Of a DNA stretch of 64,000 bases, positions 60,496-64,000 are shown piece by piece. Every line of letters starts with the position of its first letter. Position 1 is the first letter of the stretch. The position numbers were made by a program, and so were the translations under genes. Under the pieces are notes generated by a model, which saw only the letters and a list, made by a program, of their open reading frames with translations, did not search any database and had not been told where the DNA came from. This stretch comes from Lysobacter sp. Root76 (lineage in GTDB: Bacteria > Pseudomonadota > Gammaproteobacteria > Xanthomonadales > Xanthomonadaceae), in the NCBI RefSeq assembly GCF_001428685.1, contig NZ_LMIK01000001.1, forward strand, positions 471,288 through 535,287, given 5' to 3'.

Positions 60496-61869
60496 TCACA
60501 CCTCCAGGGTCATGCCCGGCCGCGCCAGCGCCGCTTTGATGCCATAACGCTCGCCGATCTCCCCGGCCAGCGCCTCGCGTGCCTTGTCTTCGCTGTGCAC
60601 CAGGGCCAGCGGCGGATGCCCGGCGATCGCACCGTACCAATCCATCAGCCCGCGTTGATCGGTATGCGCGGACAAGCCGCCGACGGTATGGCGCTGCGCG
60701 TTGACGCGCACGTCGCGGCCATGGATACGCGCCCACTGCGCGCCGTCGACCATGCGACGCCCCAGCGTGCCTTCGGCCTGATAGCCCACGAACACCACCC
60801 GCGTCTTCGGGTTGTCGAGGCGATGGCGGAAGTGGTGCAGGATGCGGCCGGCGTTGGCCATGCCGGAGCCGGCGATCACGATCGCGCCGCGCTCGATGCG
60901 GTTGATCGCGATCGAATCCTCGCTGGACTCGGTCAGCTGCAGGTTCGGCAACCGGAACGGATTGGGTTTGTCGCGCCAGACCTGCTGCGCGTCCTCGTCG
61001 AACAGACCGGCATGCCGGTCGTAGACGGCGACGACTTTGGCCGCCATCGGGCTGTCGAGAAAGATCTTCCAGCGCGCCATCTGCCATTCGTCCCAGTGCT
61101 TGGCGAACCAGTACAGCAGCTCCTGGCTGCGCCCGACCGCGAACGCGGGGATCAGCACGTTGCCGCCGTCGTTCCAGGCCTGATCGAGGATGCGGCCGAG
61201 TTCGCGAATGGTCTCGGCGCGGTCGCGGTGCAGGCGATCGCCGTAGGTCGATTCCATCAGCACCAGGTCGGCGCTGTCGATGCCGGCGGGATCGCGCAGG
61301 ATCGGCGTGCCCTTGGGGCCGAGGTCGCCGGAGAACACCAGCTTGCGGCCGTCGGCCCAGACTTCGACCGCGGCCGAGCCGAGGATATGACCGGCATCGC
61401 GGAACGCGATCTCGACGCCGGGCAGGATCTCGCTGCGTTGGTCGTAAGGCAGCGGCCGCACCAGCGCCATCGCGGCTTCGACATCGGTCTGGGTGTACAG
61501 CGGCAGCGCTTCGGGTTCGTCGCGGCCACGCCGGCGATTGCTGCGCTCGGCCTCGCTTTCGGCAATATGGGCCGAGTCCAGCAGCATGATCCGCATCAGT
61601 TCGGCGGTCGCGGTCTGGGCGTGGATCGCGCCACGGAAACCGCGACGCACCAGCAGCGGGACCCGGCCGATATGATCGATGTGGGCATGACTGATCACCA
61701 GCGCGTCGAGCGCGGCCGCATCGAACGGGAACGGATCGGCGTTGCGGCGCTCGCCCTCGGGGCTGCCCTGGATCATGCCGCAGTCCAGCAGCACGCGCCG
61801 GCCGGCGGCCTCGACTTCGTGCAGGGAGCCGGTGACTTCGCCGGCGGCGCCGTGGAAATGAACTCGCAT
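60496..61869 (-). CDS. Metallo-beta-lactamase fold beta-CASP nuclease (CPSF73-like)
   Basis: A 457-residue RNA-processing type nuclease. MBL motifs: SHAHIDHIG (His61, His63, Asp65, His66), FRDAGHILGSA, FSGDLG and a late His. The beta-CASP part is present: MESTYGDRLHRDR, IPAFAVGRSQELLYWF, IVIAGSGMANAGRILHHFRH, then DVRVNAQRHTVGGLSAHTD (motif B/C). This is the bacterial CPSF-like group (similar to E. coli ElaC-unrelated, YsaA-type proteins). The RNA target is unknown. Adjacent ltrA is convergent. Confidence 0.9.
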   Translation of the reverse strand: MRVHFHGAAGEVTGSLHEVEAAGRRVLLDCGMIQGSPEGERRNADPFPFDAAALDALVISHAHIDHIGRVPLLVRRGFRGAIHAQTATAELMRIMLLDSAHIAESEAERSNRRRGRDEPEALPLYTQTDVEAAMALVRPLPYDQRSEILPGVEIAFRDAGHILGSAAVEVWADGRKLVFSGDLGPKGTPILRDPAGIDSADLVLMESTYGDRLHRDRAETIRELGRILDQAWNDGGNVLIPAFAVGRSQELLYWFAKHWDEWQMARWKIFLDSPMAAKVVAVYDRHAGLFDEDAQQVWRDKPNPFRLPNLQLTESSEDSIAINRIERGAIVIAGSGMANAGRILHHFRHRLDNPKTRVVFVGYQAEGTLGRRMVDGAQWARIHGRDVRVNAQRHTVGGLSAHTDQRGLMDWYGAIAGHPPLALVHSEDKAREALAGEIGERYGIKAALARPGMTLEV

Positions 61870-61982: not shown

Positions 61983-62969
61983 TCAGCGGCCAGGCACGCG
62001 GCAGCAGGTGCGCGAGGCGCGCAGGCTGGCCGTGCCGGCGGAGTTGTTCTGCGCCGAGCAGGTGCCGCCGGAGAAGAAGACGAACGGCATCTGCCAGGTC
62101 GAGGACTCGCAGTTGGTCGCGGTCTGGGTGTAGCCGGCGGCGCAGGCCGGTGCCACGGCATTGGCGGTGGCGCCGGCGGCGACGTTGACCGTGGTATCGG
62201 CGGTATCCACGCAGTTCAGGGCGGTGGCAGCCGGGTTGATGAAGTAGCCGACGATGTCGCCGACCAGATGCGTCTGGGCGAACGTATACACCGACAGTTC
62301 GTTGGCCGACGCGCCCTGATCGAGCGCGACGGTGGCGAGATTTCCGCGGATGTCGCCACCAGCGTAGTTCACCGTCGCCGCGAGCGGCTGGGTGGTGCCG
62401 AACGGGAAAGCGGTGATGTAGCCGGCGGCCGCGGGCGTGACGGTGGTGAAGTTGATGACCGCCGCGGCGAACGAGCCGGCTGCGCCGACGCCGTTGCAGT
62501 TGCTGGCGGCGCCGCCCTGGAAGCTGTAGTCGGACACCGCCGTCACGTCGAAGCTGCGCACCGTGTTGGCCGCGATCGCACCGCCGGCCAGGCGGGTGTC
62601 GAACAAACGGCAGGGCGAGATCGGCACGAACACCAGATCGGTGGCGGCGTCGCCCAGGCTGTTCGGCGAGATGTCGGCGCCGGCCTTGCTCGCCGCCGGA
62701 GCGCCCAGCAGCGCGTCGGTCATGGCGTCGAAGTTCGACGCGTCCGCTGCGCTCTGCAGCGCGCTCAGCGGCGCCTTGGCGAAGGTCGGGCCCATCTGCT
62801 GGGCCCAAGTGCCGATGTCGGCGCGATAGGCTTCCTGCACGTACGGCCCCCACTTCTTGACGACCTGATAGACGAGTTCGCCGCGGGCGCCACGACCGGC
62901 GGCATCCGCAGGCTGCGACAGCAAAGGCGCAAGCGCGAATAGACCGGCGGCCAGAATCAACTTGTTCAT
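61983..62969 (-). CDS. Secreted protein with PCRxxDTR domain and Cys-rich CCRVPGR tail (paralogue 1)
   Basis: A 328-residue exported protein. Signal peptide MNKLILAAGLFALAPLLSQP, cleavage after ADAA. Region 1 (about 25-115) is helical with WAQQMGPTFAKAPLSALQSA. The domain at about 118-255 has VPISPCRLFDTRLAGG, NCNGVG, AGYITAFPFG, NYAGGDI and AQTHLVGDIVGYFINP. This is the same pattern as the PxRLLDTR..AGYLT..P..N..NLV..DVAGYF domain of many actinobacterial secreted proteins (family knowledge). A Cys tail (CAAGYTQTATNCESS, GTCSAQ, then CCRVPGR) ends it. Tandem to paralogue 2, same strand. Surface or adhesion role is inference. Confidence 0.85.
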   Translation of the reverse strand: MNKLILAAGLFALAPLLSQPADAAGRGARGELVYQVVKKWGPYVQEAYRADIGTWAQQMGPTFAKAPLSALQSAADASNFDAMTDALLGAPAASKAGADISPNSLGDAATDLVFVPISPCRLFDTRLAGGAIAANTVRSFDVTAVSDYSFQGGAASNCNGVGAAGSFAAAVINFTTVTPAAAGYITAFPFGTTQPLAATVNYAGGDIRGNLATVALDQGASANELSVYTFAQTHLVGDIVGYFINPAATALNCVDTADTTVNVAAGATANAVAPACAAGYTQTATNCESSTWQMPFVFFSGGTCSAQNNSAGTASLRASRTCCRVPGR

Positions 62970-63272
62970 GGTGTATCCCCTCTTGGCTCGATTCGCGGGT
63001 CGGGTCCCCCTTGGACCCGATCGCCGACACTCCAAAGGGACGAGAACCAAAACGAAAACAGGACACACACCTCAAAATCGCAGTGACGGAATACGCATAA
63101 CGGCCTCCATCCTTCTCCGCGTTTCCAAGGGGACCGCGCATGCAAACGCTTGCAGCCGCCGCGGCCTGAGGGAAAACACCCAACCGGTGCCGCGACTGCG
63201 CCTCAGCAATGCGAAAGGCCCGCACGAAGCGGGCCTTTTTATGAGGGTTACGCAAAAGCGCGCCGCTACCGG
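62970..63272. other. Gap between the two paralogues with terminator
   Basis: About 303 bases. It holds the terminator of paralogue 2 at 63214-63238 and probably the promoter of paralogue 1. No gene is supported. Confidence 0.6.
63214..63238 (-). terminator. Intrinsic terminator of paralogue 2
   Basis: Stem AAAGGCCCGC / GCGGGCCTTT with a five-base loop, 35 bases after the stop. T residues flank it on both strands, so it may act in both directions. Confidence 0.85.
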
Positions 63273-64000
63273 TCAGCGTCCGGGCAGACGACAGCACTCG
63301 GCGTAGACGGTCACCTGCATGGCGGTCGGGCTTTCGTTGGCGAAGACGCATTGGTGCAGCGTGCCGTTGGGATAGGACGCGACCACGCGGCCAGCCGTGC
63401 CCGCTGCCTGGCAATAACCGCCCGTCTTGGTGTAGCCGGCCGGGCAGCTCGGCGAAGTACCGGTGAACGAAGCGCTTCCGTTCATGGTGCTCACGTTCGA
63501 CACCGTCGTGCATTGCAATGCGGTCGGAGTCGGCGCGATGAAATAACCCACGATGTCGCCCACCAGATGCGTCTGCGCGTACGAATACACGCTCATGTCG
63601 CTGGCCGCGGCGCTTGTATCCAGCGCGACCACGGCCAGGTTGTTGACGATGTCGCCGCCGGCGTAGTTCGCGCTCGCCGCCAGCGGACGCGCGCCCTGGT
63701 ACGGAAAGGCGGTGATGTAGCCGGCCATGCTGGGCGTGATCACGGTGAAATTGATCATCGCCGCACCGATCGCTCCGGCGGTCCCGACGCCGTTGCAGTT
63801 GCCCGCGCTGCCGCCCTGGAAGCTGTAGTCGGTCACCGCCGCCACGTCGAAATCGCGCGTGCCGTTGGCCGGGATGACACCGCCGGCCAGGCGCGTGTCG
63901 AGGATGCGGCAGGGCGCGATCGGCACGAAGGTGAGATCGGCGGTCAGATTGCCGATCGCGCTCGGCGTGATCTGGCCCGCCGCCGTCGCGCGCGCGCCGG
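63273..64000 (-). CDS. Secreted protein with PCRxxDTR domain and CCRLPGR tail (paralogue 2; 5' cut)
   Basis: The 5' part is beyond the window; about 242 codons are visible. The frame remains open to the edge: the part before the first GTG (63926) reads ITPSAIGNLTADLTFVP, homologous to the same segment in paralogue 1, so the true start lies outside. Matching blocks: PCRILDTRLAGG, DYSFQGGSAGNCNGVG, AGYITAFPYQG, NYAGGDI, AQTHLVGDIVGYFI. The tail CPAGYTKTGGYCQAAG ... CVFANES ... CCRLPGR mirrors paralogue 1. It is the upstream member of a tandem pair; its function is unknown. Confidence 0.85.
   Translation of the reverse strand, partial: GARATAAGQITPSAIGNLTADLTFVPIAPCRILDTRLAGGVIPANGTRDFDVAAVTDYSFQGGSAGNCNGVGTAGAIGAAMINFTVITPSMAGYITAFPYQGARPLAASANYAGGDIVNNLAVVALDTSAAASDMSVYSYAQTHLVGDIVGYFIAPTPTALQCTTVSNVSTMNGSASFTGTSPSCPAGYTKTGGYCQAAGTAGRVVASYPNGTLHQCVFANESPTAMQVTVYAECCRLPGR

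Follow-up and report, generated by a model that had tools for sequence, protein, structure and literature searches.

The C-terminal part of PCSK9, an animal protein, consists of three Cys-His-rich modules behind a subtilisin-like protease. Module 1 is described as acting in LDL binding (PMC9515655), and a disulfide bridge joins Cys608 to Cys679 (PMC7929951). The likeness in fold between PCSK9 and resistin is already known; entry 2qtw states it in its title, as does a title among the references of PMC9515655. Resistin and RELM-beta (PF06954) have a single module behind a helical part (PMC4474570); resistin is called naturally trimeric (PMC8576046), and hexamers and higher multimers are also reported (PMC4474570). 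The APC-beta domain of Toxoplasma PLP1, whose authors tie it to the PCSK9 V-domain and find the disulfide positions conserved, has three repeats with two disulfides each and acts in membrane binding (PMC6294395). No bacterial resistin-like domain is described in the titles and abstract openings among the matches listed, most subscription journals being outside their scope.

The window analyzed here is a stretch of 64,000 nucleotides from Lysobacter sp. Root76. At its end lie two adjacent minus-strand genes, copies A and B, which bear the motifs that a preliminary description of this DNA had reported and end in CCRVPGR and CCRLPGR, respectively. Their architecture comprises a putative signal peptide, a predicted helical N-domain, a predicted jelly-roll core, and a Cys tail of about 80 amino acids. 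They belong to a real family, present in several Lysobacterales genera, whose tail looks like a bacterial resistin/PCSK9 module and seems to have been re-paired with its platform, i.e., the N-domain and core. The features are as follows.

61983..62969, minus strand: copy A, complete gene, 328 aa (ATG at 62969, stop included)
62901..62969, minus strand: copy A, putative signal peptide, residues 1–23 (hydrophobic N-terminus, by eye)
62706..62888, minus strand: copy A, predicted helical N-domain, residues 28–88, four helices (model)
62232..62633, minus strand: copy A, core, predicted beta jelly roll, residues 113–246, with C120 and C158 (alignment and model)
61986..62231, minus strand: copy A, tail, residues 247–328, predicted PCSK9/resistin-type Cys module with C253, C276, C287, C304, C322, and C323
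61986..62006, minus strand: copy A, CCRVPGR terminus
63273..64000, minus strand: copy B, window part; ends in CCRLPGR, the other end being cut by the window edge
63531..63953, minus strand: copy B, core
63276..63530, minus strand: copy B, tail ending in CCRLPGR, of a type unlike that of copy A
L002:4561-5577, minus strand: copy B, full gene, 338 aa, GTG start (from the genome; 289 bp beyond the window)
60496..61869, minus strand: flanking gene, metallo-beta-lactamase-fold protein (named by eye)

Copies A and B are 57% identical overall, with 70% identity in the N-domain, 68% in the core, and 19% in the tail without CCRxPGR. The pair lies between the metallo-beta-lactamase-fold gene and genes of M13-like peptidases (named by eye). 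A search of the genome gives five copies, 5/5 ending in CCR[VL]PGR: A and B, a single one at C1:358832, and two in tandem on C8 next to a parE-like gene (by eye). Hence, the tandem arrangement noted earlier is seen at a second site, and copy B, being one of five, is not the local artefact that had been considered. The shared pattern is beyond chance, given the five genome copies and the residues C120, C253, C276, C322, and C323, all Cys in 75/75 rows of the family alignment. The count of copies in Lysobacter proposed in the preliminary description gives, besides these five, full-length profile matches in 9 of 20 same-genus genomes, where G007 and G008 have the tail and a short core fragment only.

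Among the 55 loci L010–L064, a metallo-beta-lactamase-fold neighbor is seen in 7 and an M13-like protein (at least 66% identity) in 9; the PhoH-like neighbor of the C1:358832 copy is seen in 3, and the parE-like neighbor in 0. Since neighbors recur in loci of relatives, two of the copy sites are common to relatives. Scanning for promoters gave 0 sites and for terminators 1, which does not exceed the level in shuffled sequences, and no conclusion on transcription units is drawn.

The AlphaFold2 model of the whole copy A (pLDDT 88.7, pTM 0.60) shows four helices at residues 28–88, a beta core at residues 113–244, and a beta tail at residues 252–324, in agreement with the folded beta core and Cys tail proposed earlier. 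Model confidence is low at residues 1–20, and this, with the hydrophobic N-terminus seen by eye, agrees with the putative signal peptide. The tail modeled alone reaches pLDDT 96 and pTM 0.81. Thus, the structure prediction suggested as a check on a disulfide knot yields a confident, PCSK9/resistin-like tail fold with putative disulfide pairs.

The family alignment has 75 rows, i.e., copy A, the window part of copy B, and 73 of 139 non-redundant stretches of relatives; the rows kept start by model position 35 and reach 335, and stretches that scored below 40, were repeated, or contained X had been taken out beforehand. Of the relatives from the genome scan, 80 of 120 were used. Sets chosen for diversity contain 27 tails and 28 cores; a larger set of 69 tails leaves out several near-identical ones and adds L053 and L054. 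In the alignment, the N-terminus is variable and the N-domain conserved, with W40, W55, and M59 nearly invariant. In the core, C120 is Cys in 75/75 rows and C158 in 73/75. In the tail, C253, C276, C322, and C323 are Cys in 75/75 rows, C287 in 63/75, and C304 in 61/75. The latter two occur together in 61 rows and are missing together in 12; in the 2 rows where they disagree, a Cys lies a few residues off and misalignment is likely. This co-loss (Fisher p 3e-12, a value inflated because the 12 co-losses come from few related lineages) fits one disulfide pair, and the other two pairs are taken from PCSK9, whose Cys608–Cys679 bridge maps to C253–C323 of the tail. The six Cys would thus form three disulfides, C253–C323, C276–C322, and C287–C304, the last being dispensable.

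Known sorting tags have a hydrophobic segment with a basic end. The possibility that CCRxPGR is such a short C-terminal sorting or secretion tag, and not the end of a folded domain, is suggested by its position, which in most rows is the terminus or a few residues from it (P326 in 69, G327 in 67, and R328 in 64 of 75). However, the CCRxPGR end comes without a hydrophobic segment plus basic end, some copies end otherwise, and the CC pair lies within the final strand of a fold that is predicted with confidence; we regard a tag as very unlikely.

The family is without a curated name, as expected from the preliminary description: no Pfam or NCBIfam family is above cut-off in either window protein or in the remaining copies, and no PHROGs family was found for the three copies tested. 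Nor was the tail found to be a known Pfam domain. Weak matches only (E <= 10) are seen among the 27 tails: the CC domain in 8 (best 0.011), PCSK9_C3 in 6 (best 0.0084), and Resistin in 5 (best 0.57). The tail of copy A scores 11.8 bits against PF18463 (PCSK9_C3), under the curated cut-off of 26.7. In 17 genomes, PF18463 has 0 matches above cut-off, and alone it is at noise: at E <= 1 it matches 7/17 genomes, where 2/7 matches are tails, and 5/14 control genomes match too. Sequence search of the PDB gives, for the core profile, one match (obscurin, E 1.3); for the tail profile, two matches, to the collagen IV chain Viking (E 0.44 and 0.62); and for the tail of copy A alone, no match.

Support for the PCSK9/resistin fold is stronger from the predicted structure than from sequence, where the profile scores are mostly higher than those of shuffles. 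For the tail model, rows 1–25 of the second VIA alignment list are all PCSK9 (residues 602–683), the best being 3bps_A (Z 8.6, 1.8 A, 66 residues). Behind them come MUC5AC CysD7 (Z 6.3), RELM-beta (5.7), and resistin (5.7 and 5.2), with the next row at 4.5. The list for the whole-protein model also has PCSK9 in its top two rows, 3bps_A (Z 8.6) and 7anq_A (Z 7.9). A family's absence from the VIA lists does not exclude it, and the one tail type that was folded is that of copy A. Foldseek has no match of the tail to the PDB at E <= 0.001; its top seven include, at E 0.41–0.74, RELM-beta (from 0.41), resistin (from 0.49), and PCSK9 (from 0.57). Against viral structures there is no match of the tail model at E <= 0.001 (best 0.035).

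Profile comparison by hhalign pairs all six tail Cys, C253/276/287/304/322/323, with PCSK9 C608/626/635/654/678/679. The tail profile scores 22.3 against PCSK9 module 3 (0/150 Cys-fixed shuffles as high) and 21.6 against all three modules (1/150); the scores of 17.9 for module 1 alone and 15.4 for module 2 alone are without shuffle controls. The score is 17.4 for mouse RELM-beta (1/200 Cys-fixed shuffles as high) and, more weakly, 14.6 for mouse resistin, reached by 8/200. Against RELM-beta, sub-profiles of four-Cys tails and of stand-alone tails are matched by 7/200 and 10/200 shuffles, respectively, and the TGG-type sub-profile by 0/200, a post hoc result, as the sub-profiles were picked by motif from data already seen. 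The tail type of copy A itself scores 12–18 against all five targets, and the core profile 7–12.

The tail is thus similar to PCSK9 module 3 (PF18463) in its predicted fold, the six aligned Cys, the CC pair near the end, and the C-terminal position. Unlike PCSK9, it is single and follows a jelly roll. With resistin and RELM-beta it shares the arrangement of one module behind a helical part, an adjacent CC pair with R or K after it close to the C-terminus, and a fold match at Z 5.2–5.7, but their module has more Cys and no jelly-roll core, and the sequence signal for mouse resistin is weak. The APC-beta domain, set beside the tail by description, resembles it through the link to PCSK9 and differs in its repeats, its number of disulfides, and its membrane binding. 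Hence, the tail, which had seemed to resemble nothing nameable, matches the PCSK9/resistin module in predicted fold and Cys order. That it has this module fold we propose with good confidence from the models; that it shares ancestry with the module we hold with moderate confidence, judging from weak profile scores.

Small disulfide-rich beta domains might also arrive at a resistin-like shape and Cys spacing by convergence, without common ancestry, an explanation that is compatible with a platform carrying exchangeable heads. It agrees with the Foldseek E-values of 0.41 and above, the weak Pfam matches, PF18463 being at noise in genomes, and several sub-profiles near shuffle level. However, six Cys align, including the adjacent CC pair, and beyond the Cys the scores for PCSK9 module 3 and RELM-beta exceed those of nearly all Cys-fixed shuffles. 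Convergence is, in our estimate, somewhat unlikely.

The core is predicted to be a jelly roll. In Foldseek, two phage depolymerase entries and a nodavirus rank highest, and the lectin BC2L-C (E 0.0025) comes next; in VIA, the F-BclA C-terminal domain (Z 6.5), Ena proteins (6.2–6.3), C1q-type domains (6.0–6.2), and viral jelly rolls score alike. As many jelly rolls are at this level (Z 6–7), no family is assigned to the core, and these matches may reflect just a common jelly-roll arrangement. The fold is similar to that of TNF/C1q-type jelly rolls, e.g., BclA and the N-domain of BC2L-C, although their scores are no better than those of other jelly rolls; BC2L-C, described as a trimeric TNF-like lectin (PMC12914763), binds sugar and is compared here in fold only.

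The likeness to the jelly rolls of spore surfaces, F-BclA and Ena, and the several copies per genome would also be seen if these were structural or matrix proteins, with the jelly roll and the Cys module helping to stabilize and pack an extracellular layer or fiber and the tail types reflecting different assembly partners, not ligands. Such a role we consider unlikely, since the conserved neighbors at two sites are housekeeping-like (by eye) and not assembly genes, and short proteins exist that have a signal-like N-terminus and the tail alone.

The core had been thought mainly actinobacterial; its loci are also found in Acidobacteria, Cyanobacteria, Nitrospirae, and Proteobacteria, and the core stands either by itself or as repeats in Acidobacteria, Actinobacteria, Cyanobacteria, and others. 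Proteins with three cores each are encoded at L062:3755-6310 (plus strand), L061, L067, and L079, the first also with RCC1 repeats; for L062 and L067, Pfam names other parts of the protein and not the core. In a Casimicrobiaceae MAG, the platform recurs with different C-terminal parts: at L059:592-2562 (plus strand), UspA1-like repeats (below cut-off) and a Peptidase_S74 chaperone domain (E 2.8e-6) come after the N-domain and core, and at L056:3794-5143 (plus strand), in the same MAG, UspA1-like repeats, again below cut-off, take this place. Peptidase_S74 and UspA1-like parts are trimeric in known proteins. A phage or mobile origin was considered and rejected: there is no match in 50,697 phage records, and the plasmid and viral contig matches are to the core only (four Streptomyces plasmids; two viral contigs, L162 and L163, with a core-like stretch).

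Among core-pattern loci, core ORFs with a tail are 75/78 in Lysobacterales, 5/8 in beta- and unclassified Proteobacteria, and 0/31 in other phyla, where the ORFs are not deduplicated, taxa follow the record titles, L014 (titled only Proteobacteria) is counted as Lysobacterales, and the tail in other phyla was looked for within core-bearing loci only. The three tail-less Lysobacterales ORFs are cut by a sequence end or are fragments. Genomes were drawn from the family, order, and class as samples of larger groups, with 13–26 candidates scored per genome, so that copies may be missed. In the family draw, the tail profile matches 37/297 genomes (E <= 0.001) in 13/54 genera, with up to 11 matches per genome, although the weakest match, a partial one in G022, is unlikely to be a tail. 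The order draw gives 4/200, including the genome studied here, and the class draw 1/369 at E <= 1e-5, this genome only. The core profile matches 31/297 genomes of the family draw at E <= 1e-5, G007 and G008 by a 39-column fragment only. The Cys tail is thus not restricted to the genus, as had been considered: besides the 13 family genera, it occurs in two further families of the order and in betaproteobacterial MAGs.

Stand-alone tail proteins, with a signal-like N-terminus and the tail, occur in eight same-genus genomes (G005–G008, G014, G016, G017, and G019), in G016 alongside a full-length copy. Stand-alone tails at L147–L151, L093, L094, and L100 have the ends CCRTP, CCKVI, CCKTF, and CCKTI, and in these the inner Cys pair is missing. 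Some copies are broken: in Lysobacter sp. Root916 (L011:3896-5089 and L011:5313-6493, both plus strand), the core start is partly duplicated or split between two frames, by decay or assembly error, and in G201 (L146:3702-5209, plus strand) a copy is split across two frames.

Comparison of copies points to different histories of tail and platform. In all 42 within-locus pairs, the N-domain and the core are each more alike than the tails, and in 5/42 both reach 80% identity or more, against 21–41% for the tails. Fast evolution is not the whole explanation for the divergent tails, since a given tail type is conserved from genome to genome. In multi-copy genomes, 12/64 copies have a core closer to a copy in their own genome than to the foreign copy with the best tail match, discordance here requiring a lead of more than 15 points for the foreign tail match over the own-genome one. 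For the core, the margin is at least 18 points in 4 of these copies and at most 7 in 8. The nearest match lies inside the same genome for 8/64 cores and 3/64 tails; these are few, and homogenization is therefore not general.

Copy A is among the discordant cases. Compared with a same-genus copy that stands beside a B-type gene (G010), its core shares 94% of residues and 88% of bases, and its tail 36% and 53%, respectively. Compared with a Pseudoxanthomonas copy (L012), the core shares 69% and the tail 91% of residues; these tails share only 74% of bases, which argues for an old conserved tail type and not for recent transfer. The switch between tail and core in copy A is near residues 247–255, just past GYFINP, at the domain boundary. 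Copy B and its counterpart in Lysobacter sp. cf310 are alike along the whole length (88/80/96%). Judged by these alignments, the history of the tail differs from that of the core in some copies, copy A included, and expansion by tandem duplication alone, as first proposed, is insufficient. An exchange of tails and a conversion of cores both fit the data.

We propose, as a somewhat probable reading, that these genes form a family of exported, disulfide-bonded, probably trimeric proteins made of a platform and an exchangeable head. Its basis in sequence is the shared N-domain and core, the C-terminal Cys module, and the discordant histories; that the N-domain is helical, the core a jelly roll, and the tail of the PCSK9 C-terminal (resistin-type) fold is prediction only. 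The N-terminus and the Cys content suggest export by Sec, after which three disulfides would lock the tail. The platform would trimerize and bring three heads together, as in resistin or the three PCSK9 modules. A trimer is proposed mainly because N-domain and core precede the S74 (L059) or UspA1-like (L056) parts, and also because resistin is called naturally trimeric. Each tail type may have a ligand of its own, either on the cell surface or in the environment, a binding role suggested by the conserved platforms with several tail types and by the related folds, PCSK9 module 1 and the membrane-binding APC-beta as their sources describe them. Recombination or gene conversion near the core–tail boundary would join tail types to platforms.

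A further-reaching reading, possible in our view although more doubtful, is that bacteria own true relatives of the resistin/PCSK9 module as interchangeable heads on a trimeric platform, where tail types persist across genera and platforms are homogenized or re-paired at the boundary. If true, the presence of a resistin-type module in bacteria would be relevant to how a domain important in cholesterol and inflammation biology arose and would provide a simple bacterial system for studying it, while exchange between platform and head would be a testable case of modular evolution in exported binding proteins.
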